64,000 nt of DNA from Crambe crambe (Eukaryota > Porifera > Demospongiae > Poecilosclerida > Crambeidae), in assembly GCA_963924555.1 (NCBI GenBank), contig OZ004594.1:4061563-4125562 (forward strand), in the 5' to 3' direction. Position numbers and translations under genes: made by a program. Position 1 is the stretch's first letter. Every line of letters begins with the position of its first letter. The notes below the pieces were generated by a model. That model was not told the DNA's origin. It saw only the letters and a list, made by a program, of their open reading frames with translations, and searched no databases. Shown here one piece after another: positions 6,001-43,083 of this stretch.

Positions 6001-9000
6001 AATTCTGCTTGCCAAACCATTATGAAGTGTTTCTCTGAAAATATTGATCAGATTGATGATGACCTTCATATGATATGTAGGCAAATTGACCAGATTACTG
6101 AAGAGCCAGAGTTAGAAATCGAGTACTTGACTATTGAAGTACTTGGACAAGTGCTGAAATTTCTTAATGAGAGTGAAGTAGTGCAAGGTAAGCTAGGTAC
6201 ATATACATATGTTATTAACATCATTCACCTTGCAACTGTTTCAGATAAGGTGCATCCAAAGCGCTCCTTTTCTGCTAGAGTGTGGAAGACTGGCCTTCCA
6301 AATCTTGTGATAAAGAAACCTGGTAATACTAGCTTGATAACTTTGAGTAGATTGAGTATTAACCAAATTCTTTTCCTTCAGAGCATATTCTGAAAACTGT
6401 TCTGTCTCTGTACATGGAAGATCCTCATCTTCCTTTACCTACACCTGAAGAAGTACTTGTATGCAATCCTTCCACCACTGCTGAAGAGGTCATATTTCCC
6501 TCCATGTTGTTGTTGTTATTGTTGTTGTTTTTGTTTTTGTTTTTGTTGTTGTTGTTGTTGTTGACACCGAATGGGCCACTAACTATGATAGAGCCTTAAT
6601 TGATTCCCTCCCTTTTAGGTTGAGCTTTTCTGGAGGAGAGCCATCAATGATCCAGAGTACAGACGCATATTTTGCTTAGTACATGCAGAGAAGCTCTCTT
6701 ACCAAGTCAGTGATTTAGCTTTGCAGTCTTTATCTGAACACTCTCAAGGAAGGCGTGGTAAGAATTTTTCTCCTCCTACATACATGCAGAGTCAACTTGA
6801 TTATATATATTTTCGTAGATTATCGGCTGGTAATAATCTGCAGTAATGAGGAGGAAGAGAAATCCCACTTCATCTCCAAACTCCATCTCTTTAAGCGAAC
6901 TCATCTCTTGCACAGTGGCATGTCCAGGACTTGTAAGGAATACCTTACTGCACACTTTACCAAGCAAGTCCAAGTGGATGGATCCCAAGCCAGTGAATGT
7001 GATGATGACACCTCAGCATCTTCTGTAGATCATCAAAAGTATGTATGAATGTTGAATTCAATTAGTGTGTTTGTATGGCAAACACATGAATTTTCTCCTG
7101 TTTTAGCTATGTGTCATAATTAATGTTATTGTTAAAATCATCTATCATAGATCCTGTGTTTGTATTGTGAAGTCAACTCGTTCAGGGATGGGCAAGTCCC
7201 TGTATGTCCAGCGCCTAGCAGAAAAACTCCAGCAGAAGCAGGAAGATTTGGATGAGGATTTGGACGAGTCTGCAAGTGTCCATGTGACTATCCCCCTCCA
7301 TGGCCCCGTGGTCACTCCTGACACTATCCTAGAGCTGTTCAAACATCACATGAGGAATCCAACCTGCTGTATCTATCACATTGACATTGCTCCAAATGTA
7401 AGTGTTGATGGCTGGGACAAGTGTAACTGCATACTTGAAAGTTCAAATAGCCATACAGTATATGGAGAAATGCTTATAAATGTACATGTACCAACTCAAA
7501 AAGCCTGTATCATGATTCTACCATTGACCACATAAACTCTCAATGTGGATGTAATTATAATGCTGTTGGGACCAGCATAAAGTGCAAGTGCAAGTGTTCT
7601 TATTAGAGAAGCATCCTCATTTCAGGTAGCTATAAGAAATTGTTTATTTTGTTGTTGTTGTTGTTGTTGTTGTTGTTATTGTTGTTGTTATCATTGTGTT
7701 GTTGTTGTTTGTGGAGGATTTAAGATGTTAAACTTATTTTTCTACAGATTCTTTGGAAAGTGGACACCATTCTATTCAGCTTACTGATCCTACGTGGTTT
7801 GAGTGACAGTCATGGAAGAGTCTGGCGCTGTCATCCCAACCAACTCTACACCATTGAAGTCACTCTACCAAACAGAGAAGGTCTTTCTGATAAAGAGATC
7901 ATTCCAGAGAGCAGAACTTTATCGCTGCTCGAATTGCTGCCTTCAGTCTTGTGCTTAAATCCCCTAGATGTGATAAAGCATTCACAAGCCAGAGTCAAAG
8001 GTATCTTGATTCTATTTCTAAATTCCATAGAGACTCATGAAATCACTCTGTCGTAGATGATTCTGTGGTATTAATGGATGAAGAGGAGTTTCAAAGTGAC
8101 ACTTATCAAAGAGTCTGCCAGTATCTCCAATTGTATAAAGCAGGAGGCAATCTGGACAGTTTCAGTTTTGATGATGAAGAAATGCACACTTCGAAATCTG
8201 TTTTTTCTACTCAGGATTGTATCCGGATCATTATAGAGTAAATTATAAGAAAGTACACTTGAACCCCTAAATGTGGAATCCCTGAAATGTATATTCAGCT
8301 TTTCGGGTTGCTCTGCAATATGAATGTGCTTATTTCACCCCCTGAATTAATTAAGGACACCCCCTTAATCAGGACACCCCCTTAATCATGTCAGGATACT
8401 GCATTACTGGTCTCAAAAGTTTCCACATTTAGAAGTTCCACTCTATTTGTATTAATTAGTTCGCCCCTGAAATGAGGACACCCCTCCTCTAATTAGGACA
8501 TTTTCTTCTGGTCCCCAAGGTGTCCATGTTTCTCTATTCTAAATTCATGTTCTCTTTCTGCAGTTATTGTGGAGTGAGAGATCCTTCGTGGTCAGAAATT
8601 CGTAATTTCGTAAATTTCTTGAATCTCCAGTTGGAGTCTTGTGAAAAATCAGACTTCACAAATCCATACTTGACTCAGGACATCATGTCAGGCTTCAAAG
8701 GATTCGTAGTGAAGTTCATGATATACATGTCACGGGTGGGTTTTTATGATTGAATTCAGCATTGGAAGTCATGTAACATGCAGAGAGATTGTAATTACAA
8801 AAATTTAATTAATGCAGATCATGTAAAATGCAAAATGAAAGGTTTATATGAAATGCTTTATGTGTAGGATTTTTCGACTTCTTCTCTCTGTGGGGAGATC
8901 AGTTTAGAGAATCAGACAAATGAAGTGATGGATGGAGATGAAATTGATGTCTACCAAATCAGTGAAAGGAAACTCTGGGAGCAAAAGTAAGATGTAGTAA

Positions 9001-12000
9001 ACTGGTTATTCACCAAGGTTAGGTCTCACCTGGTATGTTGATAATTGTCTTATGTTGGGAGGGGAGATAACTATATGCTGGAAAATGTTTGCCCTGACTA
9101 CACCCACTTTTCCCGTATAGAATAGGTGAAGATGAATCCCTAACTTATTGACTAACTTATTGGTCAATGCCCTGAAGAACAGGTTGATATCTAATCTATC
9201 AGCAATCCTATATTTAGATCCCGTTGCTATGTGGTTGCTATGTGCATTAAATCAGCAAGTGTGCACTAATTCTGTAGGAGTGCACTAATTTTGTAGGAGT
9301 GCACTAATTTTTTTGTATCCCCAGGCTATGCTGAATGCTGCAAGACAGCTTGAAGAAGTTGTTGAAATTCTGCCTTTTATGCTGGCTACTATACTCTCTG
9401 AAAAGCTTGTTGGGTTTGAAACGTTATGTCATTATAAACGTGCAACGTGGTTAATGAATAACATTAAAATTCCACGTTTCAAACCCAACAAGCTTTTCTG
9501 AGAGTAGCTAGTATAAAAGAAGGAACATTCTAGCTGGTCTACAGCAAGCTGGTGTTTCACACGCCGCCTTCTTTGATCTTTGGACTGGGCAGGCACAAAA
9601 TACTTGTATCCTTCGTGCTCAGGGAGTATCCCCGACTTATAGATAGCTATAACAGGAGCATCAGCAGGTACGTGGACTATTCTTGCCGCCATTTCACAAC
9701 TCGAGAAAGAAGTGGAGACACAACAATTAGCTAGCTATAGCAAACCAAACAGTACTGATGTTTGTAACTATGGACTACAGTAGCTACGCGCATGCGCAAT
9801 GGGATCTAAAATAGATAAAGCATGCGCACTCGGTTTCTGGTTGATTTAGTGCACCATCCCTCGGGCCTGCGGCCCTCGGGCTACGGTGCACTAAATCAAC
9901 CAGAAACCTCGCGCACATGCTTTATCTATTACATAGTCCAATTATAGATTTATGTTTTTCCTTCAAATGATTATTATCATTCTCTCTCTTTCAGTGCTCA
10001 TCCGTATCTATTCTTCAACCAAGATGGACAGAGTATGACTTTTGTTGGATTTTCAGTAACAAAACGTGGAGATCTGATTGATCCTGCCAATAATGACATC
10101 CTACAACATGCTATCATGACCCGTGACCTCTACATTGGACTAGAAACTCAAAGAGTCAGATTCAATGATGACTATCGTCGATGGAGTAAATCAGAGATAA
10201 TCAAAAAGCTATCCACTGTGATGGGTGTGGACTATCCTTATGACCCAGATGAATCTTACGTGCTCACTGTTGATAACCTCATCAAAATGCTAGCCATACA
10301 TATGAGATTCAGGTGGGTGGGCATTATTTGCTAGTTAGTTCGTTAGTTTTAAAAATTTTGCTGGTTGATATTTTATGCTTTTCAATACAGGAGGATTCTA
10401 TTACTACTAAACTGCTACATATACTTGATATGTGTTTGAAATTGTCTTGTGCACTGTATAATGTAGGTGTGGTATTCCTGTGGTGATTATGGGAGAAACA
10501 GGATGTGGCAAGACTCGACTCATTCGCTACATGTGTGATCTCGCCAGGCAAGGGAAAGACAGAAAGAACATGTTGATCTTGAAGGTGTGTATTTTCAGTT
10601 ATCTTTTCGTCACTAAAGAGTTATCTATTCTGAAGTTAGCTGCATCCAACTGCAGCATTTCAGTATGCAAATGGCATCTCGAAGTCTAATTAGAATTTCC
10701 CCCTGAGAAATACGAGTGGGTATCCAAAATTAATAGGGCAGCTTGGTATAGTGTTGATCAAAATACTCTTATCTTTATCATTTTGATTGATAGCATGTAT
10801 ATCAATAACAAACCTAATAAATAATTTTCCTTAGGTTCATGGAGGGACCACTGAAGATGATATAGTTAGGTTCATTGAAGCTGCTGAAAGAGAGTCCGAG
10901 AAGAACTCGGACATGTACACTGTTGCTTTCTTTGATGAAGCTAACACCACTGATGCCATTGGTCTGATCAAGGAGGTCATGTGTGATCACAGGATAAAAG
11001 GGAGACCCATCTCTCCCGACATCAAATTCATAGCAGCCTGTAACCCTTATAGGAAGTGAGTACACACAATAATAATATTATACAGTGGAATTCTCAAATG
11101 AAGGACACATTCCTCTCAGAGAAAATCATCAGCAGTCATCTTTCATGCAATATCGAATGATATTTGTATCTTTTTTTTATGCATTTACAACTTGTTCTCA
11201 TGTGCAGGCATACTGATGATATGATTAAAAGGCTGGAGAATGCAGGTCTTGGTTTCTTTGTCAAAGCAACTCAATCGCAGGAAAAACTTGGTATGGTAGA
11301 ATCAATCTCTGTTCAATTTTCTATCTTTTGATTTTTTTGAATAATTATGATAATGCAGGAACAATTCCCCTTCGGCAGCTTGTGTACCGTGTGTTGGATC
11401 TTCCTGCCAGCATGAGACCTCTCGTCTATGACTTTGGCCAACTCAATACAAGCACTGAGAGTGATTATATCAGACGGATAGTCCATGATCATGTCAGTTT
11501 AGTAATAACTAATTCAAGTATTGGTAGAAACTAATTATTAGCTGGATCTTTATTAGTACATAATCGGCATTGTTAAAGAATGATTTTGTTAAATTTAGAT
11601 CAATAAACATCAGAAGTTATCAGGATCTCTTAGTAGAATAGCTGGTCCTATTACCAATGTTTTGGCCTGTTCTCAGACCTACATGAGACAAAGAAAGGTT
11701 AGAAGTAAATGAACATAGCTGATCTTTGAGTTTAAGATCATCTTTCACAGGATGAATGCAGTTTTGTAAGTCTTAGAGATGTGGAAAGAACCATGATTGT
11801 GTTTGAGTACATGTATGATAACATGGATGTATTTGGTCACCACATGGACCAATGGGCTACAGGAAAACGCCGTCACATTGGAAATGAAGATGACAGCATG
11901 GTGAGAACAATAAAATGCTTAACTCTATTGACAGTTGATGCTCATGAGTTACTAATCTGTAGAGGAAAAAGAATAGTCTTAACCCCTAGCCTTGTACGCA

Positions 12001-13364
12001 GGCCCTAGCCCTAGCCCTAGCCCTAGCCCTAGCCCTAGCCTTAGCCTCATTACCACATTATGTGCCCAAATAATTATATAATAGAACACCAGTAGTTGTG
12101 ATGAATAACTTTCTCTGTAGGAGGATTTCGATTACCAGTCCCCTGGTCCCATCACTCGAGCTCTTGTGCTTGCTCTGAGTGTATGCTACCATGCAAGACT
12201 CCAAGAGAGAGAGAACTATGAAGAGGAAGTCACTGAACATTTCATTGGCCCCATCAGTCTCCCAGGAGGAGCACAGCAATTCAGGGATGAGATCAGATGG
12301 TAATTTAGATTATAGACTAGTACATGTGTGTACATAAGGAATAACAAGATGCTGAGACCTGTTTGATGAGCAAAATAATCCAGTCCTTCTCTATCCAATA
12401 TGGTGATAAGTACTTAAATTATTTGTACCAGACATTCTGTAGCAGTGTCAAAGCTAGCTATTAAGCTACCTAATGTGCAGATGTTAGGAAGCAAGCACCC
12501 TACTCAAATTAAACTAGGGGGAAAGATTTTTGAAGAGATTATAATTACTTATACAGGTGTCAGGAAGTCCTTTTGGAAAGTATGGAACTAGGTGCCAACA
12601 TAGCCAAGAACGCTGCACTTCGTGAAAATGTATTCATGATGGCCATTTGCATCGAACTCAAGATTCCCCTCTTTCTGGTGGGAAAGCCAGGAAGTTCCAA
12701 GTCCCTAGCCAAGTCGATCATCAATGAGTCTATGAAAGGAAAACACTCAAGAAACGACCTCCTCAAAGGCTTCAAAGAAGTGAGTTGAAAACTGTACAGC
12801 TTGAGCTATAACAACAAAATTTCATGTTGGGTGTGAACTGCTATTGAACCATTATAGCTAAGGGATATTAATGTAGAACATTTGTGATAACTCGATCTTA
12901 CTTAATTCTCAAAGACCAGTGTAGATGGCTGATTGTGTGGTAGTTTTATACTCCATACCAGTCAAGAGTTATTGTATCTCAGTTACTTTTAGGTGCCAAT
13001 TGAACGCACAAATACACTTATCCCTGCTCCCATCATTATACCATCATTTGTTATAATGATAAATTATGACTATGCACTTCATGTGGTCTTGGATTTATTT
13101 TTCCTTAGGTTGAAATATTCTCGTATCAGTGCAGTCAACTCTCCACCCCCGAGAGTGTGATTGAAGTCTTCAATGATGCCAAGAGATTCCAAGCCAATCA
13201 GAATATGTTGTCCCATGTGGCTGTGGTGGTGCTGGATGAAGTCGGACTAGCAGAGGACTCCCCCAACCTCCCTCTCAAGGCTCTCCACCCTCTCCTGGAA
13301 GACGGGACAGAGGGAGCTGGTTCAAAGAATTTTGAAGATGAGGTCACTAATACATGAAATGCTA

Positions 13365-13395
<31 letters not shown>

Positions 13396-16300
13396 ATATA
13401 TAATTAATATTAAAATAATATTGTCATAGGTCGGTCACATGCAATATCTATCTAGGCAGTGCACAATTCATGTGCTATGGTCTATAACTACAACTGCTTA
13501 ATATATTGCAGGTTGTTGCTCAGCAAGACAGAGTGGCTTTTGTTGGGATTTCTAACTGGGCTCTGGACCCAGCCAAGATGAACAGAGGTGTGATGGTGAC
13601 AAGGGCTGACCCCAGTGAGGAGGAACTGGTCTTCAGTGCCAAGGGAATATGTTCTGACAAGAAGGAAGATCCTGTTAGGAGAGACCTAGAGAAATATTTC
13701 AAATATCTTGCCAAGGCTTACAAGTGTATCTGTGAACAGCAAAAGAGAGAATTCTTTGGATTAAGGGATTTTTATAGGTCAGTTTGTAATTCGTCAAATA
13801 CCCACTTCTTAAGCATAGTCTTAATGATATTGGCCATTCAATTCAGCCCTAATGCTACTCAGGGTTCTCCCCAGGATTTACTGAAGGCATGGGGGCAAAA
13901 CCATGATCACCATAAAAAGGGAGGGGCCCAACAATTTCAAGATGCCCTACTGTAGCTTGTATGGAGAGTGAAGCTAGCCACTGCTTAATTAAACTGACTG
14001 TCCATTTATACTAATAGCAAGGCATAGGGGGTAAGAACTGAAGGCATAGTGGCAAGACACAAGGCATAGGGGGAAGAACTGAAGGCATAGTGGCAAGACA
14101 CAAGGCATAGGGGGAAGAACTGAAGGCATAGTGGCAAGACACAAGGCATAGGGGGAAGAACTGAAGGCATAGTGGCAAGACATAAGGCATAGGGGGAAGA
14201 ACTGAAGACATAGTGGCCCGCTATGCCTTAAGATGCCTGGGGAAAACCCTGCTACTAGTAAGCATGAGTCATAGAGCTAATAGTTACAGCAGACTGCAGT
14301 GGTGCTAATGCACTTTTCAACATTGTGGCCGGCATATCTTCTAATTATGAAACTCCCAGGCACATTCACTTCCTATTACAGCAGATTGCAGTGATCTTGC
14401 AACACAAATCCAGAACAGCAAAACCAAATTTACATAGCCTCCATTCAAGTAGTCCAACTATGTAAATTTTGGTCTTGCTGTTCTTTTGCAAGATCACCCT
14501 TACTGTGTTTTATAGTAAGTACAGTGAATTGCAAGTTGGTTGTCCAATGTAAGATGCAAAATTCTAAAAGACCTGTATAAACATGAGGCTGTTCCTGAAT
14601 AGATGTGTGGCTTTTCAATAGATGCAAGTTTTATTGCAGTCAATTTATGCTTTACATTTGGTTCACTGTATGTACATGCCATACTTTTTAAAATGTTGTC
14701 TATCAATACCTTAGCCTGATAAAGATGCTCTACTACATGCGTGAGAAGTCGAACAAGCATCCTCTTAACTGGCAGCAGTTGGAGCATGCCATTAAGAGGA
14801 ACTTTGGAGGTCTGGAATCTGAGGAACTTAATCCATTCAAAGTGTTTCATGAGCACATAACCATGAGCAGAGAGCCCCCAAATCTTGCCAATATTTCTGA
14901 AGAGGTATGTAGTAATTGTCTGGCACACTATATATACACATCGTATGTTTACAGCCTTTTCATAACTGTTACACTAATATTTTTATTATGAATAAAATTC
15001 CTTACTCTTATCAGTTACATCCCATCATTAACCCTGACTGCTCCAGACTTGGATTGATCAAAGCTAGTCTTGGTAGTCGAGAGAAAGACTGTCATGGGTT
15101 AGTGTAATATTGAAGAATCACTTCGACAATAATAATATTATTAACATCTATTTTTTTCTTTTAATAGAGAAAATCGTTATATGCTTTTCTTGACGGAGAA
15201 TTATGCTGCACTGGATATCTTAAAAAACCCTCGGAATTATTTGAGTGGGAGCATTAATTTTGCTCAAGCTAAAGAAGGGTCGATTGACAGTGGCAGCACT
15301 GACAGCATCCCTGCTCCATTCATTCTCTTTGGCAGTAGTTTCCCAAAAGATAAAGAATACACTCAAGTGAGTCCATAGTAGCACTTACTTAAGTTCAATA
15401 TGAAAATCTGCCTGCATTTAAGAACAGATTTGTTCTAATATGCAATACGTACAGTCATACATAATCTGAGAGGCATTATTATTGCATATGTTCACCAATT
15501 CATGCTGCCCAGGTTTGTCGTAACATCAATCAGATTAAGATCTGCATGGAAACCGGACTGACTGTCATTCTCCTCAACCTGGAAAATCTTTATGAGAGTC
15601 TTTACGATGTCCTGAACCAGTACTACATCTTCCACGGTGACAGCAGATACGTGGACCTGGGACTACAGACACACAGAGTTCGCTGCAGAGTCCATAATGA
15701 CTTCAAGTAATTATTTTATATATAATACAAGGAGGATTATTATTGAAGTCTATTTCTCTTGTAGATTGATCCTCATAGCTGAGAAGGATACAGTGTATGA
15801 TAAGTTCCCCACTCCTTTGATCAATCGTCTAGAGAAGCATTTCATCCTGACATCCTCTATACTGGAAGACTGGCAAAAAGAAGTCCTAGAAGATTTTGAA
15901 GCTTGGATCAACTGTTTTTCAAATCCTGAGTAAATAGCTATGGCTATGTACTATTGTTTGTTTGTTTGTTTGTTTGTTTGTTTGTTTGTTTGTTTGTTTG
16001 TTTGTTTGCTGGGTTGTTTTTATTTATTCGTCCATTCATACAGAGATACAAGTTTCAAAGCAAGTGATGCTTTTATTGGCTTCCAGAAAGACATTCCAGC
16101 GTCCGTGATATTTCAGGCTACTAACCAACTGAAATCAGATGCAGTTCATGGTCGATTTGAGGAGAAGATTACAAAATGTAGTGGGTTGAACCCTGAGGAT
16201 TTATTCATATCTGATGCTATTAAGGCAAGTCTACTGGCTGTTTAAAATAACAGAAACCAACACCTTTTCCTTAGTGTAGCTACATTTCATTATGCATGCC

Positions 16301-19300
16301 TGAAAAATAGGGAGACCTCTCACTTTTTTTTCTGATCCCTTATAAGTGTCCATTATTTATGGCAGTGCATGCACCTTAGCCTGTATTATGACAGCATAGA
16401 GATGCAGCCATTCTCACCTGGATGTCATTGTTCATGGTTTTTTTTTATGATTTCCTTTCTTTTCCAGGTTCTGAAGCGTAGCCAGTATCTCTTGCTGCAA
16501 ACAGCTGCTCCAGATGCTATAGTCCGCCTCAAAAGCACAAAGTTGGCTAGTGAACAAACTGAAATCCAGAAGATTTATTTCCAAGAGCAGCACCATGAAT
16601 CAATGGAAGATTTTCTGATTCACCATGTGCATGAAAATGGGACCCATTCTGGACTACTAATGCAGGTAAAACCATAAGTATACAAATCAAACTATCAGAA
16701 TTTCATTATTGATAACCAAATTAGTTTGGTGTCTTACTTCTAACACTGTCTACATTTTGATTTTCGTCCATTTATGTAGCATACTACAAAATATTTTAAC
16801 AAAATTTATGAAAATATGGTACATTTTAATTGAACCAGTTTACTACTGCATCTAGGTCACTACTCACAGTCACCTTCTCTTTCTTGACGAATTAAAAGAA
16901 GTTGAGAGAGCCATTGGCATTAAAGTGGATTCCTTCTTTCTGCACGAATTTGACACAGAGCTTGACTTTTCAAATAAAATTGGGTAAGCCACTGAAGCTA
17001 TATAAGTAAGAAATTAATAGCACCATTATATTATTTATCATTACTTTATAAACACAGCCCATTATTCAAGACTCATACTGACAGAATCCAGAATCGTCTA
17101 GTGATAATACAATGTGATTCTGGTCATTTGAATGGAGACCTTATAGCATGTGCCCGCTACCGTATCTACACTCTCAGGAATGATGCTGACAAAGACCAAG
17201 TCACACATGTCCTATTCGTCATTCATCTCCCTCACCAAGTCACAGGTTCTTTCATCGGCTTTCAAGGAGATCCATGGATATCGGCTCACATCGACGATCT
17301 TAGGCCAGCTGCCGATGATTTAGTGGCACCCTATCGAGCCCTAAGCATGTCTATAAGTGAACTATTTCGTGGTTCTTGTGATACTTCATTTGCAGGATTG
17401 ACTGGTGATGAGCAAAATTACTCAAGCGAGTTAGAAAGTGGTGAAGTTAGTGATCATGAAAATGATGGCTTTAAAAGGGATTCTAGTAGTAGTGATGAAA
17501 ATGAAAGTACATCTGAAGGAATGGAGAGTGAGGAAGAGGAAGATGAAATGGATGATGGTGAAACATCCAAGATATCAGATGAAGTCAGAGAAAGTCCACA
17601 TGAGATGGGTTCAACCGATATGTATGTAGAGGATATCGAAAGTGATGATTTAAGTGAAAAATCTGTCTCTGATCATTCACATGGTGATGTTAACAGCCTC
17701 ACATCTGTGGAGCCAACTCAACTTGTAGTACATGAAGGTGATGATGGAACGTCTGCTCAGATTCCAGTAACGGTAGCAGCAAGACCAGAAAAGCTCGAAG
17801 CATCGCCTCTCTTCAAACGACTGCATGGCTGTATCCAAGCAGCTGCCTCAAAGTTCGAGGATGTAGCTACTCAACGATCAATTGAAAGAGTTGGGATCTT
17901 GGTCAGCCTCATTCCAGAAGAAATACCAAATCAACCAGGTATGTATATTACAGTGGAACCTCTGGTAAAGGAACTCTGAAAGAGGACAACCTCTCAACAA
18001 AGAAGTACCTTTGTATACCTCTGATAAAGCACACTCTGAAATACCCTATACAAAACAAACAAAAAAAAAAACCTCCAAAAGAGGACAACCTCTCTACATA
18101 GGACAAAAGGCTATAGGTCCCAAATGTGTCCATTATTTGGAGGTTCTTCTCTATTATGAGCATGCTGGGGTTCTCAATTCTTGCAATCATGTTTACCTTT
18201 TTTCATAGATTTTACTACATTTCATGGAGTTCTAATTCAACACATGTGCCGAATTCTGGACCAGAGGGAGCAGGTGTGGAAAGATGAATCAGAATGGGTC
18301 ACTAAGGAAGCCATGAATGCTAAGAAACTGCAACATGGAGGAACCTTCCGCAATGTCCTCACCAGGAAAGTGGATGAAGTGGTGGTACCTCTTTTTGCAG
18401 AGATCATTGCAAGAATTGACAGGAACTACAACCTCAATTTGATCTATCCGATGAGTCAAAACTCACCGCTCTTTCTCTTTTGGATGAATGTATTTGGTAA
18501 TGTAGCAGTGATGGATTTTGACTACAATGAAATGATTACCCCAAGGCCACAAGTTCCAGGAGTTGGAGGGAGGAAGGCAGATGTTGACTTCAAGTGTGAA
18601 CTTCCCTTTTCGTGGCTGATCTTAGATGCTGTGAAAGGTCAATGGGACAATGCTAAAAGCTCCACTGGTATGTGGTAGAGTTTTTTTTTGTTATTGTTGT
18701 TGTTTTGATCCGAATAAAAACAAACAACATCACAAAAAAATTAAACAACAAAAATACTTTAAGCTGCATGCAACCATGAACTAATTTTTCATTCCATTCT
18801 AATGATAAGATTGATAATCTGCTCCAAGTGAGTGATTTTTCTATCACCAGCAGAGATTACTGTAGCCGATTCTAATGGCATTGCTTTTCTCTTTTCAAGA
18901 AAGACAAGAAGGGATCTTGGAACTCCGTGTTTACCTACTTATATACATGCATGCATGTTTCCTTGCCTGAAAATGGTGCTAAATAATTGTCATTGTGAAA
19001 TCCATACAATCGAGATCTCTTTTTTTTAAAAATAGTGGATAATGATACATCCCAGCTACACCAGCAGTTGTGTGACTCAATTGAACAGACTCCTTTTGGA
19101 AGCATTCTGAATCAAATTGACCCAACATTCCATGAGGAGTTCTACCGAAAATATCTGCATGATTACTTGAGGATCGAGTATAGATGCCACCACAAACTAA
19201 AAGAACATGAAGTTAAGGAATATGAGGTCTGTATGAATAATTAATGTGGGGCTTTTAGTGGGTGGGTGGGGGGGGGGGGGTTTAAAATTCCACTTCCCTC

Positions 19301-21840
19301 TCTCCATTGTAGCTGTATAACTTAGCTTGGCTATAATATAAATATAATGTTACATCCTTCAACCCCACATAATTTGCTACACCATGTTTAATTGCTATAT
19401 CATTTAATTGCAGCTTTTATTCAATGCTCTGGATGCTCTGGTACATGGAGAAGGTTTCTGTAGCAGTGATGGAGCTACCAGTCTATTGGCTAGAATAGCT
19501 GCCGTGCATGTGGTCTACAACGTGAACAGGAATCAGGTGTTATGTTTCGGACGACTTGTCATGCATCATCCAGGCATCATTACTGACTTGAAGAAGAAAC
19601 ATACACCTGATCAAAGTGAAATGGTATGAGCAGGAGTTCAGATAGCTCTCAGGACTTTACATTCCATGAGTTCAATAAATACCTTTCCCTCCTTTCTTTT
19701 CTTTGCACTCACAAAAACTATACAATTCATTCTTTCAAGATTCTGCATCTGCAAGCTGTGACTGAAGCTTTTGAGGAAGGTCGTCTCTTCCCCAAGTGTG
19801 ACAAGGATATGTCTACTGCTAACCTTGTTCCGTGGCTGAGAGATGTTCAGTTATCACAGAATGCTGTCACAGCAATCGTCAACTTATCCTCCCAACATCA
19901 AATTAGAGTGGAAGCCCGGTATAGTTATGTAAACAGTGTATAGCTAATATAAATATATTGGGAAAATTTCGTAGGGTAGAAATTTGTAAGGTGTATGTAC
20001 AGTGAACTTAAAAATTTCTATTGTATTTTAGTATAGTGGGAAATTTTTGTGAGGAATTTTTTTTTGTAAATTTCTTGATTTTTGAACTTAAATTATGGTG
20101 TTTACACTTCAATTTTGTCCTATGAAGAATACAGTAGCTAGAGTGGAACCCCTCAATGTGGACACATTGTTGATACTTTCTGGTCCCAGAAATGTCCACA
20201 TTGAGATTCTAATCATTGCTGTCATTCTCATATCAGATCAAAATGGGAAGTCATTCAGTCTCTTCAGTTATTCTTTGAACATGTTATGCTGAATACCCCA
20301 AATCTACCCATTACTCAACTGATCAAGTTGAGGCTCGTAAGTGATGGTTTAGTTCTTAGCCACAGTGTTAACTGTTCTGTTTTTCATGATTGTATCGTAG
20401 TTATTGAAATCAGAACAGAGCTTCTCTAACGTGAAGGTTCTCCAGAAAGTACAGAAATTTTTGAATAAATTATCCACTGAAGTGACTAAGAAAAAGTACA
20501 TTATTGCTACACACCTTTTTTAAACATTGATAGCTAATTGAATGTTTAATGCAGGCTCGTGGATGATATCAGGACATTCCAAAAACATTGCCACAATTAC
20601 TTTGTGGAAGTGGTTTCAACTCTCTGCTTCGGTGGAGATAAAGTACCTGACCCAGCTCTCATCCAGATGCTGATGGCCATTGTGTATTTTGAGAATGAAA
20701 ACTCCACACTTGATACACGTGACCTTACTCCCTTTGACAAGGGGAATGTGGATGAGGTTCCTATCATCAGGTCCTCCCTTTTACAGTTGTTACTGGAACA
20801 CAAGTATGTATTTGAAATTTGAGCAAATCCACTGATTTTATCATTTTCTATTTAGACTCACAATACATAACTTAGCCTCATACCTAGGCCCGCTTTTTTC
20901 ATGGGGCCCCGTGAAAAAAAACGGGCCTGGGTACGAGGCTATACATATTTATGTAACAATTTTAATCTGTACATATGCACCATCTCTAGGTAGCTAGCTG
21001 GTTTAATGTATCCCACTGTCTCTGTTAACTCACTTCAAATCTTAGAGAAACTTATAATAAATGATGTCAAGTTGTTCTTTTTATTTCATCACAGTTTCGA
21101 AATGATCAAGGAACACCTGGAAGAATTCTTCCATATCTCTCAGAGAGCACTTGACAAAAGTAACAATCAAAACCTGTGTCTTTTATGCATTCAATGTTTT
21201 GAGGTAAGTTTTAATAGCTAGCTATAGTTCCAAGAGCTCTTGGTAGTTCTACAGCCATGAAATATAGGATAACAAGAAATCTATACATGTATGTAGGATG
21301 CATTGTACAAGGAGCACTCAAAACTAGAAGATAAGGTCCATGCTCTTGTGAATAAACTGACAGATTCGTTTGGAGCCCTGAAGGCCTACAAGGTCAAGCC
21401 AGAAATCACTATCAAGTATCTGGAAGCAATTGCTGGTATGAGATTTGCTTTGATGGAGATTTCACGTCTTCTTCACTTGAGCTGTTCTGACAAACAAGTA
21501 TCTGATGGGTCACCTCCTACACAACAGATGTCACATTCAATTTTAAGTATCCTTCAGAATGTGTGTACTGATCTTGATATCAATAACTTCTCTGCTGATG
21601 ATACCGACATAGTTGGACCTGCCGTGTATCTTTTGAAGTTGCTGGTGAGGGTGTATGGTTTCCCTTGCCTGAAGCAAGTGTGTGAAGCATATCCTTGGAT
21701 AGTTCCTGAAGGACTTCGCATAACAGATCAGGTCTGTCAACTCTCAGAGAGTTACTTTGCTGGCTGATACAACTAACTACCAGTGGAGATAAATGCTATG
21801 TACCTTTATATTGAACCCCTAGTAGCTAAAAAAAAGAAAG

Positions 21841-21888
<48 letters not shown>

Positions 21889-24800
21889 AATGCACTCATT
21901 TACTTTCTGAAATGTAGGAAAAAGTCATCGATCCATTTGTAATTTACAGAGGATATTGCAGTCTGAGGGCCACAGTCAATGAAGGAGCTTTCGGAAAACA
22001 AGTTGAAAAAATGATTGAAGTCACTGAGGTAGAGCTGAAGTTAATTTACTAGTTCAACTTGTATTATAATAATAATGTACTGTTGACAGGGTTTTGACAT
22101 CAATGAAGCTGTGGTTTTATTACTGGCATTTTATGAGACAATCACTTTCAAGTATGCTGAACAAGAGAGACCCATTAGTGGTGATGTAAGTTGAACCCAT
22201 GCAGTAGCTAGCAAGCTGTAGAGGAGTAGAGCAGTAATGTACGTATGTCCTTATGTTAATAGGTATCAGAGAAGTTGAATCAATTCTCTCTTGACATGAA
22301 ATCTTTTTCTCCTTCAATGCGGGATATTGCTCGACTACTCCTGAGTAATGAACAGGGTGGTCCCCTTGCCCAGATGACTCTTCGTCCTGGATTGCCCTTA
22401 GAGTGCAAACTACTTGGCACTTTAGTGATTCATGAAGTCTCAGTATTCAGTAGCAAGGCTAACTTGAGTTTGCTGCTTCCCTTCATCAACATGATGACCA
22501 AACCAGAAGCTTTGATGGTATGGTATTGGCATATGTCTGTACACATACTGCATGGCAATAGTTAGTAACTACTAAATGTATTTAATAGCTATACTTGTTA
22601 TACACTCGTTTAGATAAGCACACTGTTGGATGGGGGGGTGCATTTTCTATTTCCTATTATAAGAGCATGTGTCGTGTATGCTGGAGGGAAATCTTTGTGG
22701 GGTCTTTTACCAATTTCTGATATACAATAGTGATTGACATTAGCTATATTTTTCCTCTCTATTTAAAATCATTATAGAATGCATTTTTGCCAACTATGCC
22801 AGAGGACAGCTTTCAAGAAATAAGAAGGACGATGATTGATGGTGAAAAGGCTTATGGTGAGGCAGCTGTGTGTATATAATATTCATTAAAAGTTGCTCTT
22901 CTTTTTTTGATAGCTTGTCCCAATGGCCATCGTTACATAGTTGGAGAGGTAAGGGACATGATTTTAGTGATCTTATCATCTCATATCAATAACTAAATGT
23001 TGTATGTAGTGTGGAAGGCCATATGAAGTTAGAATATGCAATGAATGTGGAGCTAGGATTGGTGGGACTTTCCATCGATTACTGGAGGATAACACTGATC
23101 AAATAGTGTAAGTCATTTCCAGTCATAATTTGTTTGTATTATGTGCACATTAAGTGAATTTCGTCTCTACAGCTTAACCTTTAAGACTTCAGTATTTTTT
23201 CATTATACAAAAGTCAAAAATGAGCAATTACGATGCTATTTTCTGTTATAGACACGATACTACTCAAACTGGACATACATTGGGAAGGGCAGAGTTGAGG
23301 ACAAGCATTCCCGCTCCTGAAAGGAACCTTTCCTCCCCAGCTGTTTGCATCATGAGGGCTCTCATGCACGCAGCCTTCATCTGGTGCTCTTGTCACCAAC
23401 AAGACTTGGTTCATGATTTGGCCACATTGGTGAAGCCCTTTGTCGACCTCGGGCACCTTCCAGAGTACTTCTGGATGCACCTCCATAAAGATATCCAACA
23501 CTTATCACGTGTGACTGGAAGGTCCATGGATGAGTCTGTGCTTATCATTCATCTAATACTGAAAGATATTCTCACCAGAGAAGCACCACCTAGTAAGATT
23601 TAATTATACTGAGGTCTCAAGAAAAACCAGTTTTAACCCCTAAATTGACTAAATTTGAGTGGAGTGTTTTTATTTGTAGTTGCAGCATATTCTCTAGCAT
23701 CTAAAGAAGACAGAAAACTCTGGGAGAGAGAATTCAACACTTACTACATCCAGCCAGTTCTTGAAGATTTGGACGACAAAATAGAGGGGGCTATGGATCT
23801 CATTACCAATGATGACACACAAGGTGGATTAGCCAGCTATGTAGCTGTGCACCTGCTCTATTAATAATTGCACACAATATTCAGAACATGATCAGCTGTT
23901 CTACTTGGTGTATGAGAGAGTGAAGGTGAGTGAGGGGAACATGGAGCCTCACTTATGGAGCTATCGTCAAAGAGTCTCCTTGGAACACCTTGGACAAACA
24001 CTGCAGGAGAAAAAACTCAAAGATCAGTATCCAATACTCCACGAATTCCTTGAGGCTGTAAGTTGAAGATTGAGCAACTTAATCCTCTTCTTTGGAGTAA
24101 TTTTTTTCAGTTTATTTTTTGAAATAACGTTCATATGTCAACTGCAGGAGCCCATGTTGAGAGCTACTAAATACCTCCCTGATGTAATAAAACTTCAACA
24201 GTTTCTGTATGACACTTACCATCATCGTCTCGATCGGGCTGATGCAAAGGCACAAACTATTGGAGACTTCCTGGAGAAACTGAAAAATGGTATGGTAGTG
24301 TACAACTATTGGAGTAGCTGCAGGTTGTTCTCAAGTCAAGAACCGTGTCTCCATGATCATAATTAGGGACATCTATTATAAGACCAATTGTTTTTTTCTT
24401 TGATATTTTAGAAAATTCTCGAATTGAATATGGTGAAAGAATAAGAAGCTTACAAAAGGCTTGGGAGTTAGTTGGACAGAATTTAAAGACACATGGTATG
24501 TTACAATGCATGTATATACATGTAAATTTAACATTCTGTAATTTCTGTCTTAATAAGGTGCATTACCTGTTGAATATAAGCACTGTCTCCCTGCAATCAC
24601 ACATGATGTACCCTTGGAATATCTCATTCCTACTCGATCTGGGGCTGGTGCCTGCACTGCTTCTCTCGTGGACTTCCTCACTCGCACTCACAATGACTTC
24701 ATTCACAAGTGCCAAACCATTGCAACAGCTACTAATAGTCAGAGGTAACACATACACACACTTCACTGGCGCAGTTATAGCTAATAGGTGTGCTGAAGGC

Positions 24801-26727
24801 ATTTAGTAAATACTTGGTACATAAGGATCAGCAGTACATGGATTACCAGTATATTTATACTGATTCAGGAGATAGCTCATGTGCTTGTTCTGATAGCTCT
24901 CTTTTCAATTGCATGACTATGTATATGACTAGGCTATAACATTATCTTGGATTTATGAGGTGGGACATTTCTGTTATTGCAGTGAGTGGTCGATGCATGA
25001 AGTCCCCATCACTCACATCCATCATTGCCACCTCTTGGACTATGAGCATCAGATAGTGTCCGTGGTTCTCTCCCATTGTCGCTACTCCCTCAAGGTGGGT
25101 GAGGCCCACAACGTCCAGTACGACTACCGAGCTCTGGAAAGACACATCTTGAACAAATTCATACATGGAAAACCAAAGATTCTCTATGATAGTTCTGATA
25201 TTCCCCAAGTGGAATATAGTAAGGAAATTTACACCAGAAAAACATTTGGAGCTGTGAGGAAGAATGTCCATCCACAAGTAAGCACCAGGAAAAGGTCTCA
25301 TGTTATATTAGCAGAGGAGTTAAATGTATATACTGTCCTATACCTAGATCTTCCCAATTGTAATCATGGTGGGTGGTTCATTTTGAACAGTTCCAAAATT
25401 GATGATTGTAGTTCATTAATAATTGCCCATTGTGCCTAATAAGGTCCCAATTTTACCACAAAGGTATATCCCCTTTTGTACTTGTTCATATACAACTCAC
25501 TTGATTTGGTACATAGATTTTACATCATCATCAATGTCATGTGCTATTATCTACAGATGGACTTGGATTCTCACATCAGAAGGGAGATTCTAGCTGAGCT
25601 AAGCACTCCTGACAGGCTTCGAGAGAGTTTGGATGTCATAGACATCGTGATTGGTTTTCTGTCATCTGCTGGTACAGTGGAAGCCAATAAAGACTTGGGA
25701 GACTACATTGATAAAATCCTGAGGATGAAGAAGAAACCATTTAGCAAAAAGGTATAGCTAGCTAGCCAAACAAAACTTGGAAAGCCTCCATTGACTGTAT
25801 GATGATACAAGAGTCTTGTTGATTATGTGCAGGCTCGAGAATATTGTAAACTCAAGCACATCATATCCCTTTGGAAAACACTTTCTTTGGAGTTATCAAG
25901 ACTTTCTTGGATTCATGGACAGGTATATAGCGAACTAATGACAAGTCGGGACCTAGCATTTTGTCCATTGTAGAGAGATGGTGTCCTTTATGCATTATTG
26001 ATTAATATTCGGAGGTTTCACTAATACAACAAGGGGGACTATACAACCCCTGAAAAAATTCTGCTTTAATGTATGGTTTACACCCTCATACATATCTAGT
26101 CGTATCTATATTATATGCATAGGAGGAAACACTGAAGCTTGGGCACAAGGCTAGCAGCTACATTTAATTAATAATTGTACCAACTACACATCAGTATTCA
26201 TTGTATCTTCCCAGGAACCTTTTGACTCAATGAAGGATGAGTACCTGAAGGGATTGGATAAAGAAGTAGATGGTCAGAGGGCTGCTCTTGATAAGTGCTT
26301 GCGTACTTTTGATTTGGACAAATGGCTGGGAGCACTTTATGAGTTCATTGAGACTTATGTCAGATATTCACTTGATAATGAGTTGACTGACCCGTAAGTT
26401 ATGGTATTATTACATCACGTCAGTTCTTCAGTATTATCCATAGCATCTTAAATGTTTCATTCATTATAATGTTTAATGTAAAGCATTATCAGAGAGTAGC
26501 TAGCTGTGTCACATATACTCTCTAAGTAGATGTGGCACAGATGCCTGCTACATTATTATGCGTTATTACGTATAATTCCCAGGCTCAAGGAAATCATGGA
26601 AACGTTTTCATACTTTGATTTACCTGCTGGATGTTTTGAAGAGTTTCCAGAATCCATCACTCTGAGTCAAACAGTTGCTGTCTGGAAACATACTGTACTC
26701 TACCATGGCAGACTAAGACTACAATAA
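1..26727 (+). CDS. RNF213/mysterin-like giant AAA+ E3 ubiquitin ligase, gene A (5' end outside window)
   Basis: I reconstructed 69 coding exons by matching GT-AG (one GC-AG) splice sites to an open, phase-consistent frame, about 14.06 kb of coding sequence (roughly 4,690 residues); exon coordinates are in the domain entries that follow. Order: N-terminal arm and linker, UBA-like insert, six-unit AAA+ core, acidic insert, E3 module, RZ finger, C-terminal domain. Landmark motifs GETGCGKT, FFDEANTT, GKPGSSKS, LDEVGLAEDSP, GISNWALDPAKMNRG and CPNGH...GECGRP match human RNF213 as I remember it, in the same order. The family forms a cytosolic ATP-regulated ubiquitin ligase. The usual protein is about 5,200 residues, so several hundred N-terminal residues are upstream of base 1. 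The RING finger is absent. The stop is TAA at 26725-26727. The only junction I could not close is between 5853 and about 6028. No internal stop breaks the reconstructed frame. Confidence 0.96.
203..297. repeat. Short inverted repeat in gene A intron
   Basis: CCTGTTCTGGAGG at 203-215 is repeated as its reverse complement CCTCCAGAACAGG at 285-297, with about 69 bp between. It lies in the intron 161-454 and could be the end pair of a tiny MITE or simply a hairpin. Confidence 0.6.
840..1240. repeat. Dispersed repeat in gene A intron, inverted copy near 44.1-44.3 kb
   Basis: The intron 651-1316 carries sequence (GGAGCATGCACATTATGCAT, then TTTTGGAGTGTAGACCTA, then GCTCGCTCGCTG) that recurs on the opposite strand around 44120-44330. 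An open frame over this repeat (840-1142) is not an exon: it has no family similarity and no fitting splice sites. Confidence 0.6.
5362..5585. repeat. Intronic MITE-like repeat (copy 1; copy 2 at 17940-18160)
   Basis: The intron between exons 12 and 13 holds phrases such as GGAACCT, AAAGGACACTCTGAAA, AAGAGGACAACCTCTCTA and GGACAAAAGGCT, followed by CATTATCTGGAGGTTTC. Nearly the same phrases in the same order occur in the intron at 17940-18160. Both introns are therefore largely made of one dispersed element. Confidence 0.7.
5586..5853 (+). other. Gene A exon 13: UBA-like domain insert
   Basis: This 268 bp exon is phase-compatible with the preceding exon and encodes an acidic flank followed by SVVTDLVSAGYSLEESIHAV and then EKYGTLDESLEYLE. 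The pattern (V..L...G(Y/F)...E.(S/A)..A(V/L)...G.L(D/E).(S/A)..YL) is that of the three-helix UBA fold, which binds ubiquitin. It sits between the linker and AAA1. I do not recall an equivalent in human RNF213, where this place holds only helical linker. The tail is acidic and rich in E, D, Q and P, so probably a flexible tether. The donor (cag/gtaaaa at 5853/5854) leaves phase 2, which does not fit the next clear exon; a short exon may be missing or the next start may differ. Confidence 0.65.
6028..8986 (+). other. Gene A exons 14-23: AAA1-AAA2 of the AAA+ core
   Basis: Exons: about 6028-6187, 6245-6322, 6382-6488, 6619-6757, 6819-7038, 7151-7397, 7748-8000, 8057-8237, 8564-8735, 8868-8986. 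Recognisable pieces are LPLPTPEEVLVCNPSTTAEE (AAA1 entry), DYRLVIICS, and STRSGMGKSLYVQRL, a Walker A P-loop whose GxGKS lies near 7189-7204. In the family this is the P-loop of AAA2, which holds a structural ATP. VRDPSWSEIRNFVNFLN and GFKGFVVKFMIYMSR complete the unit. Donor sites are mostly GTAAGT-like. The first exon start is inferred from an AG at 6026-6027 and is the weakest boundary in the gene. Confidence 0.9.
6502..6565. repeat. (TTG)n/(TTTTTG)n microsatellite in intron
   Basis: A run of TTG and TTTTTG units directly follows the donor side of exon 6382-6488. A similar (GTT)n run lies at about 7650-7712 and another at about 21842-21889, all in gene A introns. Confidence 0.85.
9387..9513. 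repeat. Palindromic MITE in gene A intron (first of two)
   Basis: Arms of about 38 bp: 9387-9424 (containing AAAAGCTTGTTGGGTTTGAA) and its near-perfect reverse complement at 9474-9513, with a 49 bp loop. It sits in the 1,008 bp intron 8987-9994, one of the largest of gene A. Confidence 0.8.
9810..9930. repeat. Palindromic MITE in gene A intron (second)
   Basis: Left arm 9810-9854 (AATAGATAAAGCATGCGCAC, then GGTTTCTGGTTGATTTAGTG) and right arm 9884-9930 are reverse complements with few mismatches around a GC-rich loop that is itself partly palindromic (CCCTCGGGCC...GGCCCTCGGG). Typical of a foldback element. Confidence 0.82.
9995..11900 (+). other. Gene A exons 24-30: AAA3, catalytic ATPase unit
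   Basis: Exons: 9995-10312, 10467-10584, 10835-11055, 11208-11290, 11359-11492, 11599-11697, 11751-11900. The second exon carries Walker A GETGCGKT (near 10490-10515). The third carries VHGGTT, Walker B FFDEANTT and a sensor-1-like AACNPYRK. IPLRQLVYRVLDLP and DFGQLN follow, then SFVSLRDVERT. These are the motifs of the hydrolysing AAA3 unit of RNF213, including the Lys of Walker A and the Asp-Glu of Walker B, so ATP binding and hydrolysis are expected to be intact. One donor, gttaga after 11697, is a weaker than usual GT site. Confidence 0.95.
12003..12044. repeat. Telomere-variant-like (CCCTAG)6 array in intron
   Basis: Six perfect CCCTAG hexamers at 12003-12038 are followed by a CCTTAG variant; a degenerate CCCCTAG lies just upstream at about 11982. 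The unit differs at one base from the animal telomere repeat CCCTAA. It lies in the intron between exons 30 and 31. Confidence 0.9.
13362..13396. repeat. (AAAT)n microsatellite
   Basis: Tandem AAAT units occur in the intron 13343-13511, followed by AT-rich sequence. A (GTTT)n array is present at about 15955-16010 in the intron before exon 16044. Confidence 0.85.
14019..14217. repeat. 41 bp minisatellite in gene A intron
   Basis: About 4.8 copies of a 41 bp unit starting AAGGCATAGGGGGAAGAACT and ending GGCAAGACAC. Each unit is itself two diverged half-units of about 20 bp beginning AAGGCATAG. Copies differ at only a few bases. It occupies part of the 937 bp intron 13778-14714. Opposite-strand open frames over it are products of the repeat. 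Confidence 0.9.
15015..17938 (+). other. Gene A exons 36-43: AAA5-AAA6 and acidic insert
   Basis: Exons: 15015-15097, 15168-15366, 15513-15706, 15765-15929, 16044-16224, 16468-16665, 16856-16983, 17058-17938. RNINQIKICMETG, LENLYESLYDVLNQYY and FPTPLINRLEKHF are strongly conserved family signatures without Walker motifs, as expected for these non-hydrolysing units. The 881 bp exon includes WISAHIDDLR and then a long Ser/Glu/Asp-rich stretch (about 17400-17690) with runs of acidic residues. Human RNF213 has a shorter acidic insert at the same place, probably a disordered loop linking the AAA core to the E3 module. Exon 16044-16224 ends at a GC donor. Confidence 0.93.
16221..16230 (+). other. 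Non-canonical GC-AG intron donor in gene A
   Basis: After the codon for the Lys of DAIK the exon edge reads AAG/GCAAGT, a textbook GC donor with otherwise perfect consensus. The acceptor is ttttccag at 16460-16467. Reading frame and protein similarity continue without a gap on both sides (DAIK then VLKRSQYLL). All other introns I placed in this gene start with GT. Confidence 0.85.
17939..18208. repeat. Intronic MITE-like repeat (copy 2)
   Basis: The intron shares ordered blocks with 5362-5585: GTGGAACCTCTGGTAAAGGA, CTCTGAAAGAGGACAACCTC, AAAGAGGACAACCTCTCTA, GGACAAAAGGCTATAGGTCC and a closing TTATTTGGAGGTTCT. Related fragments with GTGGAA(C/T)CCTC and TGTCCACATT occur in introns near 8260-8510, 11085-11130 and 20140-20210. 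No coding capacity. Confidence 0.7.
18209..20803 (+). other. Gene A exons 44-50: first half of E3 module, RING finger absent
   Basis: Exons: 18209-18667, 19036-19226, 19414-19623, 19740-19918, 20237-20336, 20401-20495, 20555-20803. GTFRNVLTRKVDEVVVPL, QTPFGSILNQI and SKWEVIQSLQLFFEHVML align with the pre-RING part of the human E3 module. Exon 20555 (HNYFVEVVSTLCF, then LTPFDKGNVDEVPIIRSSLL) aligns with the part right after the RING. Between them is only the short exon 20401-20495 (SFSNVKVLQKVQKFLNKLS), with no C-x2-C...C-x-H...C-x2-C pattern. The introns on each side are 64 and 59 bp, too short to hide a RING of about 40 residues. The RING core is therefore missing rather than overlooked. Confidence 0.88.
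20873..20941. repeat. Short palindrome in gene A intron
   Basis: TAGCCTC(A)TACC(T)AGGCCCG with a poly-T spacer on the left and CGGGCCTGGGTACGAGGCTA on the right form a hairpin with loop GGGGCCCC. It lies between exons 50 and 51. Confidence 0.8.
21095..22856 (+). other. Gene A exons 51-56: E3 core/shell up to RZ finger
   Basis: Exons: 21095-21203, 21297-21731, 21918-22028, 22090-22185, 22263-22517, 22778-22856. Landmarks are ITIKYLEAIAGMRFALMEIS, VGPAVYLLKLLVRVYGF, FSPSMRDIARLLLS and NAFLPTMPEDSF, which follow the order of the vertebrate E3 shell. The segment CLLCIQCFE in exon 21095 has three Cys but is an ordinary helix of this region, not a RING. All six exons join in frame. In the family this shell presents the RZ finger and catalytic Cys to the E2. 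Confidence 0.92.
22914..23592 (+). other. Gene A exons 57-59: RZ zinc finger with conserved catalytic cysteine
   Basis: Exons 22914-22948 (only 35 bp), 23010-23107 and 23252-23592. The joined peptide reads CPNGHRYIVGE then CGRPYEVRICNECGARIGG, giving C-x3-H-x6-C-x8-C-x2-C, the RZ (RNF213/ZNFX1) finger. The next exon continues DTTQTGHTLGRAE as in vertebrates. From memory the first His and the Cys of GECGRP correspond to human H4509 and C4516, residues tied to RZ-dependent ubiquitin transfer; the Cys codon is 23010-23012, the first codon of its exon. Ligase chemistry that does not need a RING is therefore plausible. Confidence 0.95.
23680..26727 (+). other. Gene A exons 60-69: E3 C-terminal half and C-terminal domain
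   Basis: Exons: 23680-23823, 23885-24057, 24148-24289, 24412-24495, 24558-24744, 24983-25277, 25557-25751, 25833-25922, 26215-26393, 26583-26727. The intron 23824-23884 is only 61 bp. EVPITHIHHCHLLDYEHQIV, IVIGFLSSAG and CKLKHIISLWKTLS match the family C-terminus. The last exon ends FPESITLSQTVAVWKHTVLY then HGRLRLQ and TAA, the same terminal pattern as the human protein (FPEEILLASCVSVWKTAA), so the stop is natural. No strong AATAAA follows closely; ATTAAA-like sequence occurs near 26825. Confidence 0.93.
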
Positions 26728-41712: not shown

Positions 41713-41930
41713 CTGTTGCTATACTGTTGCTATGCGTTAGAAAAAATTACTTTTTACAAGCTAATACGGATAAAACACCCGTGGGGTACCGGGTGTCAAT
41801 TCAATTCAATACTCACCACGTGATGCTATTTGCTGATACAGCGGATTTACATTCCGTTCGAATATTCCGTATGCCGTGCAAAGGAAGCGTATGCTTTGTG
41901 CTTAGCTAACGGCTATCCACGCCAATCAAG

Positions 41931-43083
41931 ATGTCTGACCATTCAGGAGGAGGTGAAGCCCCTCAAGCTAGTACAAAGTGGAGTTGTAAGGATTGTCACT
42001 ATGAAGATCCTAATTCTCAGCGTACGCCTAATTTTTGTCCCGATTGCGGGGCGAAACAATCGGAAGAAACTGAAACAAAGAAAACTGTCAGCCAGCAACC
42101 AAGTGGAAATCAGACCATAGATCAGATTTCAAGTGAAAATACTTCCCAGAAATTGTTCTGTAAAGAGTGTAATGAAGAATCAATTACCCCGGCAACAAAG
42201 ACGTGCTTGAAATGTGGCAGTGTACAGAATCTCGAGAAAAAAAGTAAAGAGAACATGCAGAGTGATAATGAGCATGCTGTTGATCATACCCAAGAACAGA
42301 GAGATGGCAGTCAGCAGGTTGTCATTGATAATGGCAGTGATCCAGAAGGGAAGGGTCAGCAAATTAATCCTCAGCAAAAGCATGACTGCCATGGCAACCA
42401 AATTGAACCTCACCCTATTCAAGACGGTACTAACCAGAACGACCAGGACAGTGATAATAAGAATCAGACCAATGACAAGCAAAAATCTTTTGCATATGGT
42501 CAAGGTGAAAATGAAGGCTGTGTGGGTGATTCAGATAGAATGGTATGTATATTACTATTTCTGAGCTCAAGTTAATATCATTCATTGTAGGGTGAAGATG
42601 AGAATCTTACTCCAAGAGATGATCAAGAACCAAGTGATGATCAAGAACCAAGTGACAAGGAAAGTGGCGGCAAAGGTGATAATCAGGATGCTACTCCCAC
42701 TCAAAATAAAGAGTCTGGTGGTGATCTTCCACAAAAAATGGATATGGATGGTCAGACCGGCAAGAACCATGTGAGTGATCCTGAAAAAATACCTAGTGAT
42801 AAATCGGAATTACAAGATAATCAAGGCAAAAGTCTTCAAAACAAGAATGGTGCTCAACTTGACAGTAATGAGAATGAATCAGGGGAAGCAAGTTTCCAAG
42901 TTGGACAGGTATTATATTATATAATCACAATATCTTCATCTGACCACTATAATTATGTTGTACCTAGGATGAATCTCGGGTTCTTGTTCCAAAATCTGAA
43001 AGAAAAGATCAAAGTTTAGTGGAAGAAAGTGGAGCAAAGAAAAAGAAAAATAATGATGGTGCTTCTTCTAAGCCTCAAATAAG
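41931..43083 (+). other. Gene B exons 1-3: double zinc ribbon and disordered N-terminus
   Basis: Residues 19-39 form ribbon 1 (CKDC...CPDC, C-x2-C-x13-C-x2-C) and residues 77-95 form ribbon 2 (CKEC...CLKC, C-x2-C-x11-C-x2-C). Human RNF213 starts with one such ribbon, as I recall. The rest of exons 1-3 is low-complexity, with a small internal repeat (DDQEPS twice at about residue 212) and many N, Q, D, S and K. Exon boundaries: donors atg/gtatgt and cag/gtatta, acceptors cattgtag and gtacctag. The third exon ends in phase 2 (ag/gttact). Confidence 0.85.

Follow-up and report, generated by a model that had tools for sequence, protein, structure and literature searches.

A natural RNF213-like gene without a RING finger in the sponge Crambe crambe

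Can RNF213, a giant immune ubiquitin ligase, exist in nature without the RING finger from which it takes its name? The question is raised by a gene in a 64,000-nucleotide stretch of contig OZ004594.1 (here C17) of the sponge Crambe crambe, the whole of which is called the window below. According to the authors of PMC12440826, what the RNF213 RING does is still elusive, and the fact that it has persisted points to an important role. As described in PMC7311170, many of the gravest moyamoya variants lie in this domain. RNF213 has been described as conserved in vertebrates (PMC7311170, PMC4632019), and a cnidarian study lists RNF213 among induced genes (PMC13319465). Among the papers listed by searches of open-licence PMC full text, a collection outside which most subscription papers and preprints lie, none was found to describe a naturally RING-less RNF213.

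The window holds an RNF213-like gene, the features of which are collected in Table 1. Upstream of 17058 the exons are those of an automatic chain whose boundaries are wrong and which contains two stops, both at joined codons. The E3 part alone was rebuilt by hand, except that its first acceptor is the one given by the automatic chain, and in this model the intron phases are consistent and the one stop is at the end. Both AAA3 and AAA4 carry the Walker motifs of an RNF213-type AAA+ core. The stretch preceding the AAA3 Walker A motif matches an RNF213 PDB sequence with an E-value of 1.1e-58, and AAA4 aligns to RNF213 PDB chains with a best E-value of 5.4e-69. Homology to RNF213 is also found in the E3-back (E = 2.9e-18 for the whole joined protein against chain 6tax), the E3-shell/core (7.8e-40) and the C-terminal domain, CTD (3.2e-35), and in each of these searches 9/9 PDB sequences among the matches listed are RNF213. 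Chain 6tax is taken here to be mouse RNF213, while 9jwg and 9jw1 are presumably human. For the N-terminal stalk and CBM20, Pfam gave no matches at E ≤ 0.05 in 710 aa of a rough N-terminal model. A long acidic, serine-rich stretch where the E3 part begins (17410-17700) is likely disordered, as judged by eye.

Table 1. Positions of the features discussed, in window coordinates unless a contig is named.
Feature	Position	Strand	Basis or remark
RNF213-like gene	438..26727, approximate; 5' end rough	+	conservation with paralogues on C17, the window's contig
AAA3 Walker A (GETGCGKT)	10492..10515	+	frame scan
AAA3 Walker B (AFFDEAN)	10925..10945	+	frame scan
AAA4 Walker A (GKPGSSKS)	12681..12704	+	frame scan
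AAA4 Walker B (VVLDEVG)	13226..13246	+	frame scan and alignment to RNF213 chains
Hinge and E3 module	17058..26727	+	hand-built; 27 exons, 1851 aa, GT-AG introns, open frame
E3-back exon before the RING position (SKWEVIQ...LRL)	20237..20336	+	in-frame join, alignment to 6tax
E3-back exon spanning the missing RING position (LLKSEQ...KKK)	20401..20495	+	alignment; homologous exon in 7/7 C17 copies
E3-back exon after the RING position (LVDDIRTFQKHCHNYF...)	20555..20803	+	alignment, genome search
RZ finger, first half (CPNGHRYIVGE)	22914..22948	+	equivalents of zinc ligands Cys4451 and His4455; aligned to 9jwg
RZ finger, second half (CGRPYEVRICNECGARIGGTFH...)	23010..23107	+	equivalents of catalytic Cys4462 and of His4483
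E3-shell exon after the RZ finger	23252..23592	+	alignment to RNF213 chain
CTD exons	26215..26727 (26215-26393, 26583-26727)	+	TDPLKEI where chain 9jw1 reads WSLRDTL
Diverged RNF213 homologues	C10 2928400-2934399 (L048); C9 5250769-5256000 (L050, L051)		

The three E3-back exons around the RING position join in frame across GT-AG introns of 64 and 59 bp. The upstream flank of the joined protein aligns to 6tax residues 3338-3394, weakly when taken alone (5.6 bits, i-E 89), and the downstream flank to residues 3478-3614 with 61 bits. Between them, 16 residues of the query (107-122) face the 83 residues of 6tax (3395-3477) that hold the RING. The Trp-to-Cys spacing is 145 in 6tax versus 74 in the window protein, a comparison that leans on the weak upstream piece. 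The numbering of chain 7oik is offset from that of 6tax by 523, and its numbers were taken as native because the RZ Cys falls at 4451. In 7oik numbering the gap is 3918-4000, which encloses the entire mouse RING construct published as 3941-3999 (PMC12075652). No Cys/His RING pattern lies in these exons, as the sequence-only reading had stated; neither a strict nor a looser pattern matches in any of the six frames of the window or of the paralogue regions. Judged by alignment, the gene is an RNF213 without the RING of vertebrate RNF213, in which a short linker joins the flanks, and it lacks the cross-brace RING of a RING-type E3. That finger gives RNF213 its name but is not what defines the catalysis demonstrated for it.

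The gene does not stand alone. Searching all 143 Mb of the genome with the exon that follows the RING position gave seven copies at E ≤ 0.01, the window's own and six others, all on C17 and spanning about 371 kb. The window gene is thus one member of a co-orthologue cluster, for which the term 'orthologue' used at first is loose. The exon order is identical and the RING-less junction is common to all seven copies. Measured between alignment ends, the first two E3-back exons lie 53-77 bp apart, and the next two 59-86 bp apart in six of the seven and 229 bp in L025. The copies form two groups: the window copy and L022 are 90% identical, and the other five are 52-56% identical to the window copy. 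For the RING-less exons, dN/dS is 0.12-0.35 in 17 of the 21 pairs (Nei-Gojobori, 136-145 codons). In the other four pairs, all between groups, synonymous sites are saturated; between-group dS is otherwise 1.6-2.3 in these exons and 0.8-1.0 in the shell exon. At these ratios, the RING-less exons are under purifying selection.

The RZ finger is recognised by Pfam (PF20173, E = 2.6e-18). According to PMC12075652, the zinc ligands of mouse RNF213 are Cys4451, His4455, Cys4471 and Cys4474, with Cys4462 acting as nucleophile and His4483 probably as base. The window copy has both the zinc ligands and the Cys4462/His4483 dyad. The claim that this is an RNF213 that lacks the RING and keeps the RZ finger therefore holds in both parts, with 16 versus 83 residues at the RING site and the RZ residues present. 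Equivalents of Cys4451, His4455, Cys4462, Cys4471 and Cys4474 occur in all seven C17 copies and that of His4483 in six, L025 having Gln (C17 4266872-4266955). Compared with vertebrate RNF213 (mysterin; human and mouse), the window gene shares the AAA3/AAA4 motifs, E3-back, E3-shell/core, RZ finger with its zinc ligands and Cys/His dyad, and CTD, with significant alignments in the parts tested. It differs in having no RING between the last E3-back helices and, in the window copy, no CTD Trp. Like ZNFX1-type RZ proteins, it has no RING, and its presumed catalytic unit is the RZ finger; those proteins, however, are not known to have the RNF213 AAA core or the E3 shell. ZNFX1 is an RNA helicase with the same finger (PMC12075652). 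Outside C17 the genome holds 13 RZ-finger matches (C1, C6, C16, C18 and C21; loci L009-L020), eight of them in single open frames of 1457-1927 aa. These loci are perhaps a ZNFX1-type expansion; for two C-terminal pieces, Pfam gave the RZ finger only.

What might such a protein do? Engineered deltaRING RNF213 (PMC7311170, PMC11549300, PMC12440826) is alike in that the RING is gone and the other parts of the E3 module are kept, whereas the form here is natural and belongs to a multigene family under purifying selection. In mouse and human RNF213, ubiquitin is passed on by way of the RZ finger and the RING is not required: the deltaRING protein keeps autoubiquitylation (PMC7311170) and pathogen ubiquitylation (PMC11549300). 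As explained in PMC12075652, ATP binding at AAA3/AAA4 together with CTD-bound E2 drives transfer to Cys4462. By mechanism, the RING-less gene should work like the deltaRING protein. Since the family has the parts that the mechanism needs and lacks the dispensable part, this RING-less RNF213 family is best explained as, and most likely is, an RZ-type transthiolating ligase. ATP-loaded AAA3 and AAA4 would license the E3 module, E2~ubiquitin would dock on the CTD and shell, and ubiquitin would pass to the RZ Cys (the equivalent of mouse Cys4462) and then to a substrate, aided by the RZ His. We infer this catalytic cycle, the pairing of helices and any target; the absence of the RING, the intact AAA3/AAA4 motifs and RZ residues, and the purifying selection on the RING-less exons are read from the sequence. 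The earlier proposal that RZ/E3-shell chemistry is the core activity fits the gene, although it has already been published from mouse and human biochemistry (PMC7311170, PMC12075652, PMC11549300) and the gene proves no activity.

Some published findings count against the ligase reading. According to PMC4632019, human mysterin failed to rescue zebrafish fast muscle both as an ATPase mutant and as deltaRING, the deleted RING being given as 3997-4093, which speaks against a fully dispensable RING in vertebrates. Either the RING has some role there, then, or the deletion harms the fold; fold damage was the objection raised in PMC7311170 against an earlier large deletion. The isolated RING is active in vitro according to some groups, as cited in PMC11549300, while its activity was not detected in the assays of PMC12075652. 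A natural animal family without the RING, in which the RZ residues and the constraint on the E3 module are kept, shows that the RING is separable from RNF213 and offers a ready comparison for what the RING adds. Nature appears to have made the deletion that was engineered in laboratories.

Further homologues were found with AAA4 and with RZ-plus-shell queries on contigs C9 and C10, and with AAA4 alone on C41. Their AAA4 is 71-73% identical to that of the window over 65-70 aa. The equivalent of the E3-back exon pair was recognised by eye in C9 and C10, with a counterpart of the exon spanning the missing RING position (by eye and pairwise alignment). Aligned pairwise with the window, they score 88 and 74 respectively, higher than any of 1000 shuffles in either case (top shuffle scores 57 and 50). 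An intron of 149 bp separates the two exons in C10 and one of, by eye, about 80 bp in C9, and the C9 and C10 pieces fetched contain no RING pattern. Altogether, 9/9 E3-back regions read are without a RING, two of these calls (C9 and C10) being made by eye and pairwise alignment, out of at least 10 RNF213-like genes; the C41 homologue is not among the nine. In both the C9 and C10 genes the RZ finger is missing its first half, with neither CxxGH nor the catalytic Cys, but CxxC knuckles are still present close by. Their sequence suggests members without ligase function, perhaps pseudo-ligases that carry another kind of zinc element, and the absence of half the RZ finger from two diverged homologues in the same genome counts against the RZ-ligase reading. 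A RING-bearing RNF213 elsewhere in the genome was sought and, for the copies read, rejected; at E ≤ 0.01 the E3-back query matched the seven C17 copies alone. Among the matches listed for the AAA4 query there are also eight weaker AAA matches (37-38% identity) on C1, C5, C19 and C21. RNF213 in viral contigs was considered as well; two pattern matches were obtained, neither of which was confirmed.

How the family came to be without a RING can be explained in two ways. We lean towards a RING in the RNF213 of the animal ancestor that was lost once in this lineage before the copies duplicated. Since all nine E3-back regions read are RING-less, the C9/C10 branch included, one loss before duplication suffices. 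AAA4 is 71-73% identical to C9, C10 and C41 versus 39/67 to 9jwg, which would place the duplications after the separation from the vertebrate line, and a single ancestral state in the lineage then accounts for all copies read; identity, however, is not a tree. The motive for a loss was perhaps a docking site exploited by pathogens, or a client that was itself lost. A bacterial effector binds the human RNF213 RING, and deltaRING escapes degradation (PMC12440826), although pathogen escape as a motive is speculation borrowed from a mammalian pathogen.

The other explanation, plausible even if we would not call it probable, is that the RING was inserted later between the two last E3-back helices on the line to vertebrates, the RING-less form being ancestral. 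PMC7311170 describes the RING as an insert that separates the two ultimate E3-back helices, has no linchpin residue and is dispensable for transfer, and the RING-less form is under constraint and present in every copy read. A domain insert, however, is lost as easily as gained. Somewhat more tentatively, RNF213 may have begun as an RZ-only ligase, with the RING as a vertebrate-line insert for regulation or partner binding and not for ubiquitin transfer; this genome would then preserve the original, and a side branch would have dropped half of its RZ finger.

Within the cluster, the ligase reading fits some copies better than others. The CTD Trp is kept in L024-L027, four of the six copies with a CTD found (WPLKD versus WSLRD of 9jw1); the CTD of L023 was not found. 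By numbering, this Trp should be mouse W5097, and at the residue so matched the window copy has no Trp; L022 reads TDSLKEI at the same site. According to PMC12075652, changing mouse W5097 to Ala costs activity in the way that loss of the whole CTD does. Without the Trp, E2 docking by the window copy may be different or poor, which lowers our confidence in this copy as a ligase. It might even be a weakened or non-ligase member, an AAA scaffold whose sister copies are still ligases, but we think this unlikely. In alignment to the WSLRDTL of 9jw1, L024-L027 show LWP at the place where the window copy has TDP and L022 has TDS, which points that way, as do the C9 and C10 homologues without the first RZ half, its His and the catalytic Cys. 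On the other hand, the RZ finger of the window copy is intact, the Trp match depends on pairwise alignment and our own W5097 numbering, HMMER placed an Asn of the window protein opposite the Trp, and the L025 CTD alone had no PDB match at E ≤ 0.1. For the family as a whole, the RZ-type ligase stays the preferred reading.

That the missing RING is an artefact of collapsed assembly, a missed exon or a pseudogene is hardly credible, despite a repetitive cluster, a 318-bp intron just upstream in the window copy (19919-20236), one of about 1 kb at the same spot in L022 and the 229 bp between the last two E3-back exons of L025. The sequence-only reading had itself named a collapsed gap at the RING site and an extra RING exon as what would overturn it. 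There are no Ns in the window, the paralogue blocks or the C9/C10 pieces, and six paralogues have the same RING-less junction. Several paralogue introns are too short for such an exon when checked on the DNA; the three gaps around the RING site of L024 are 58, 71 and 71 bp, too short because a 59-residue RING needs 177 bp. The frame is open across 27 exons, and the purifying selection on the E3-back exons also speaks against a pseudogene. The strict RING pattern has no match in the window and the seven loci (L021, the window's own stretch, and L022-L027), and the looser one none in the window and the 200 kb in which the paralogues lie; neither pattern would recognise a RING interrupted by an intron. 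Pfam, run on residues 1-1479 of the 1851-residue E3 module, gave no RING at E ≤ 1. Based on the paralogue intron lengths and the pattern and Pfam searches, a hidden RING exon was ruled out. Cys clusters of C-x-H type at C17 4358628 and 4453094, which in two paralogues lie between E3-back exons two and three, were rejected as chance readings of related intron DNA.

Besides the seven copies, several further observations were made on C17 and in the genome. An inverted near-copy of the gene (window 338-26002 versus C17 about 4.368-4.394 Mb) is 86.6-99.2% identical in pieces of at least 400 bp, with one 862-bp tract at 99% that may reflect gene conversion. The RZ-to-CTD end has a partial copy (window 22725-26721 versus C17 about 4.189-4.194 Mb, 86-92%). 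An extra E3-shell match at C17 4255826-4256155 is 79% identical with four internal stops and is perhaps a decayed copy. Genome-wide there are at least 150 RING matches (150 of 598 candidates were scored), many of them within reading frames near 700 aa in length, which we take to suggest a large TRIM-like expansion. An open frame at 41910-42575 of the window gives a double zinc ribbon match below threshold (Pfam DZR, E = 1.3e-4), unrelated to the RING. Finally, the ten matches to the C17 cluster in window 46871-61670 (402-899 bp, 76.6-90.8%) are probably dispersed repeats.
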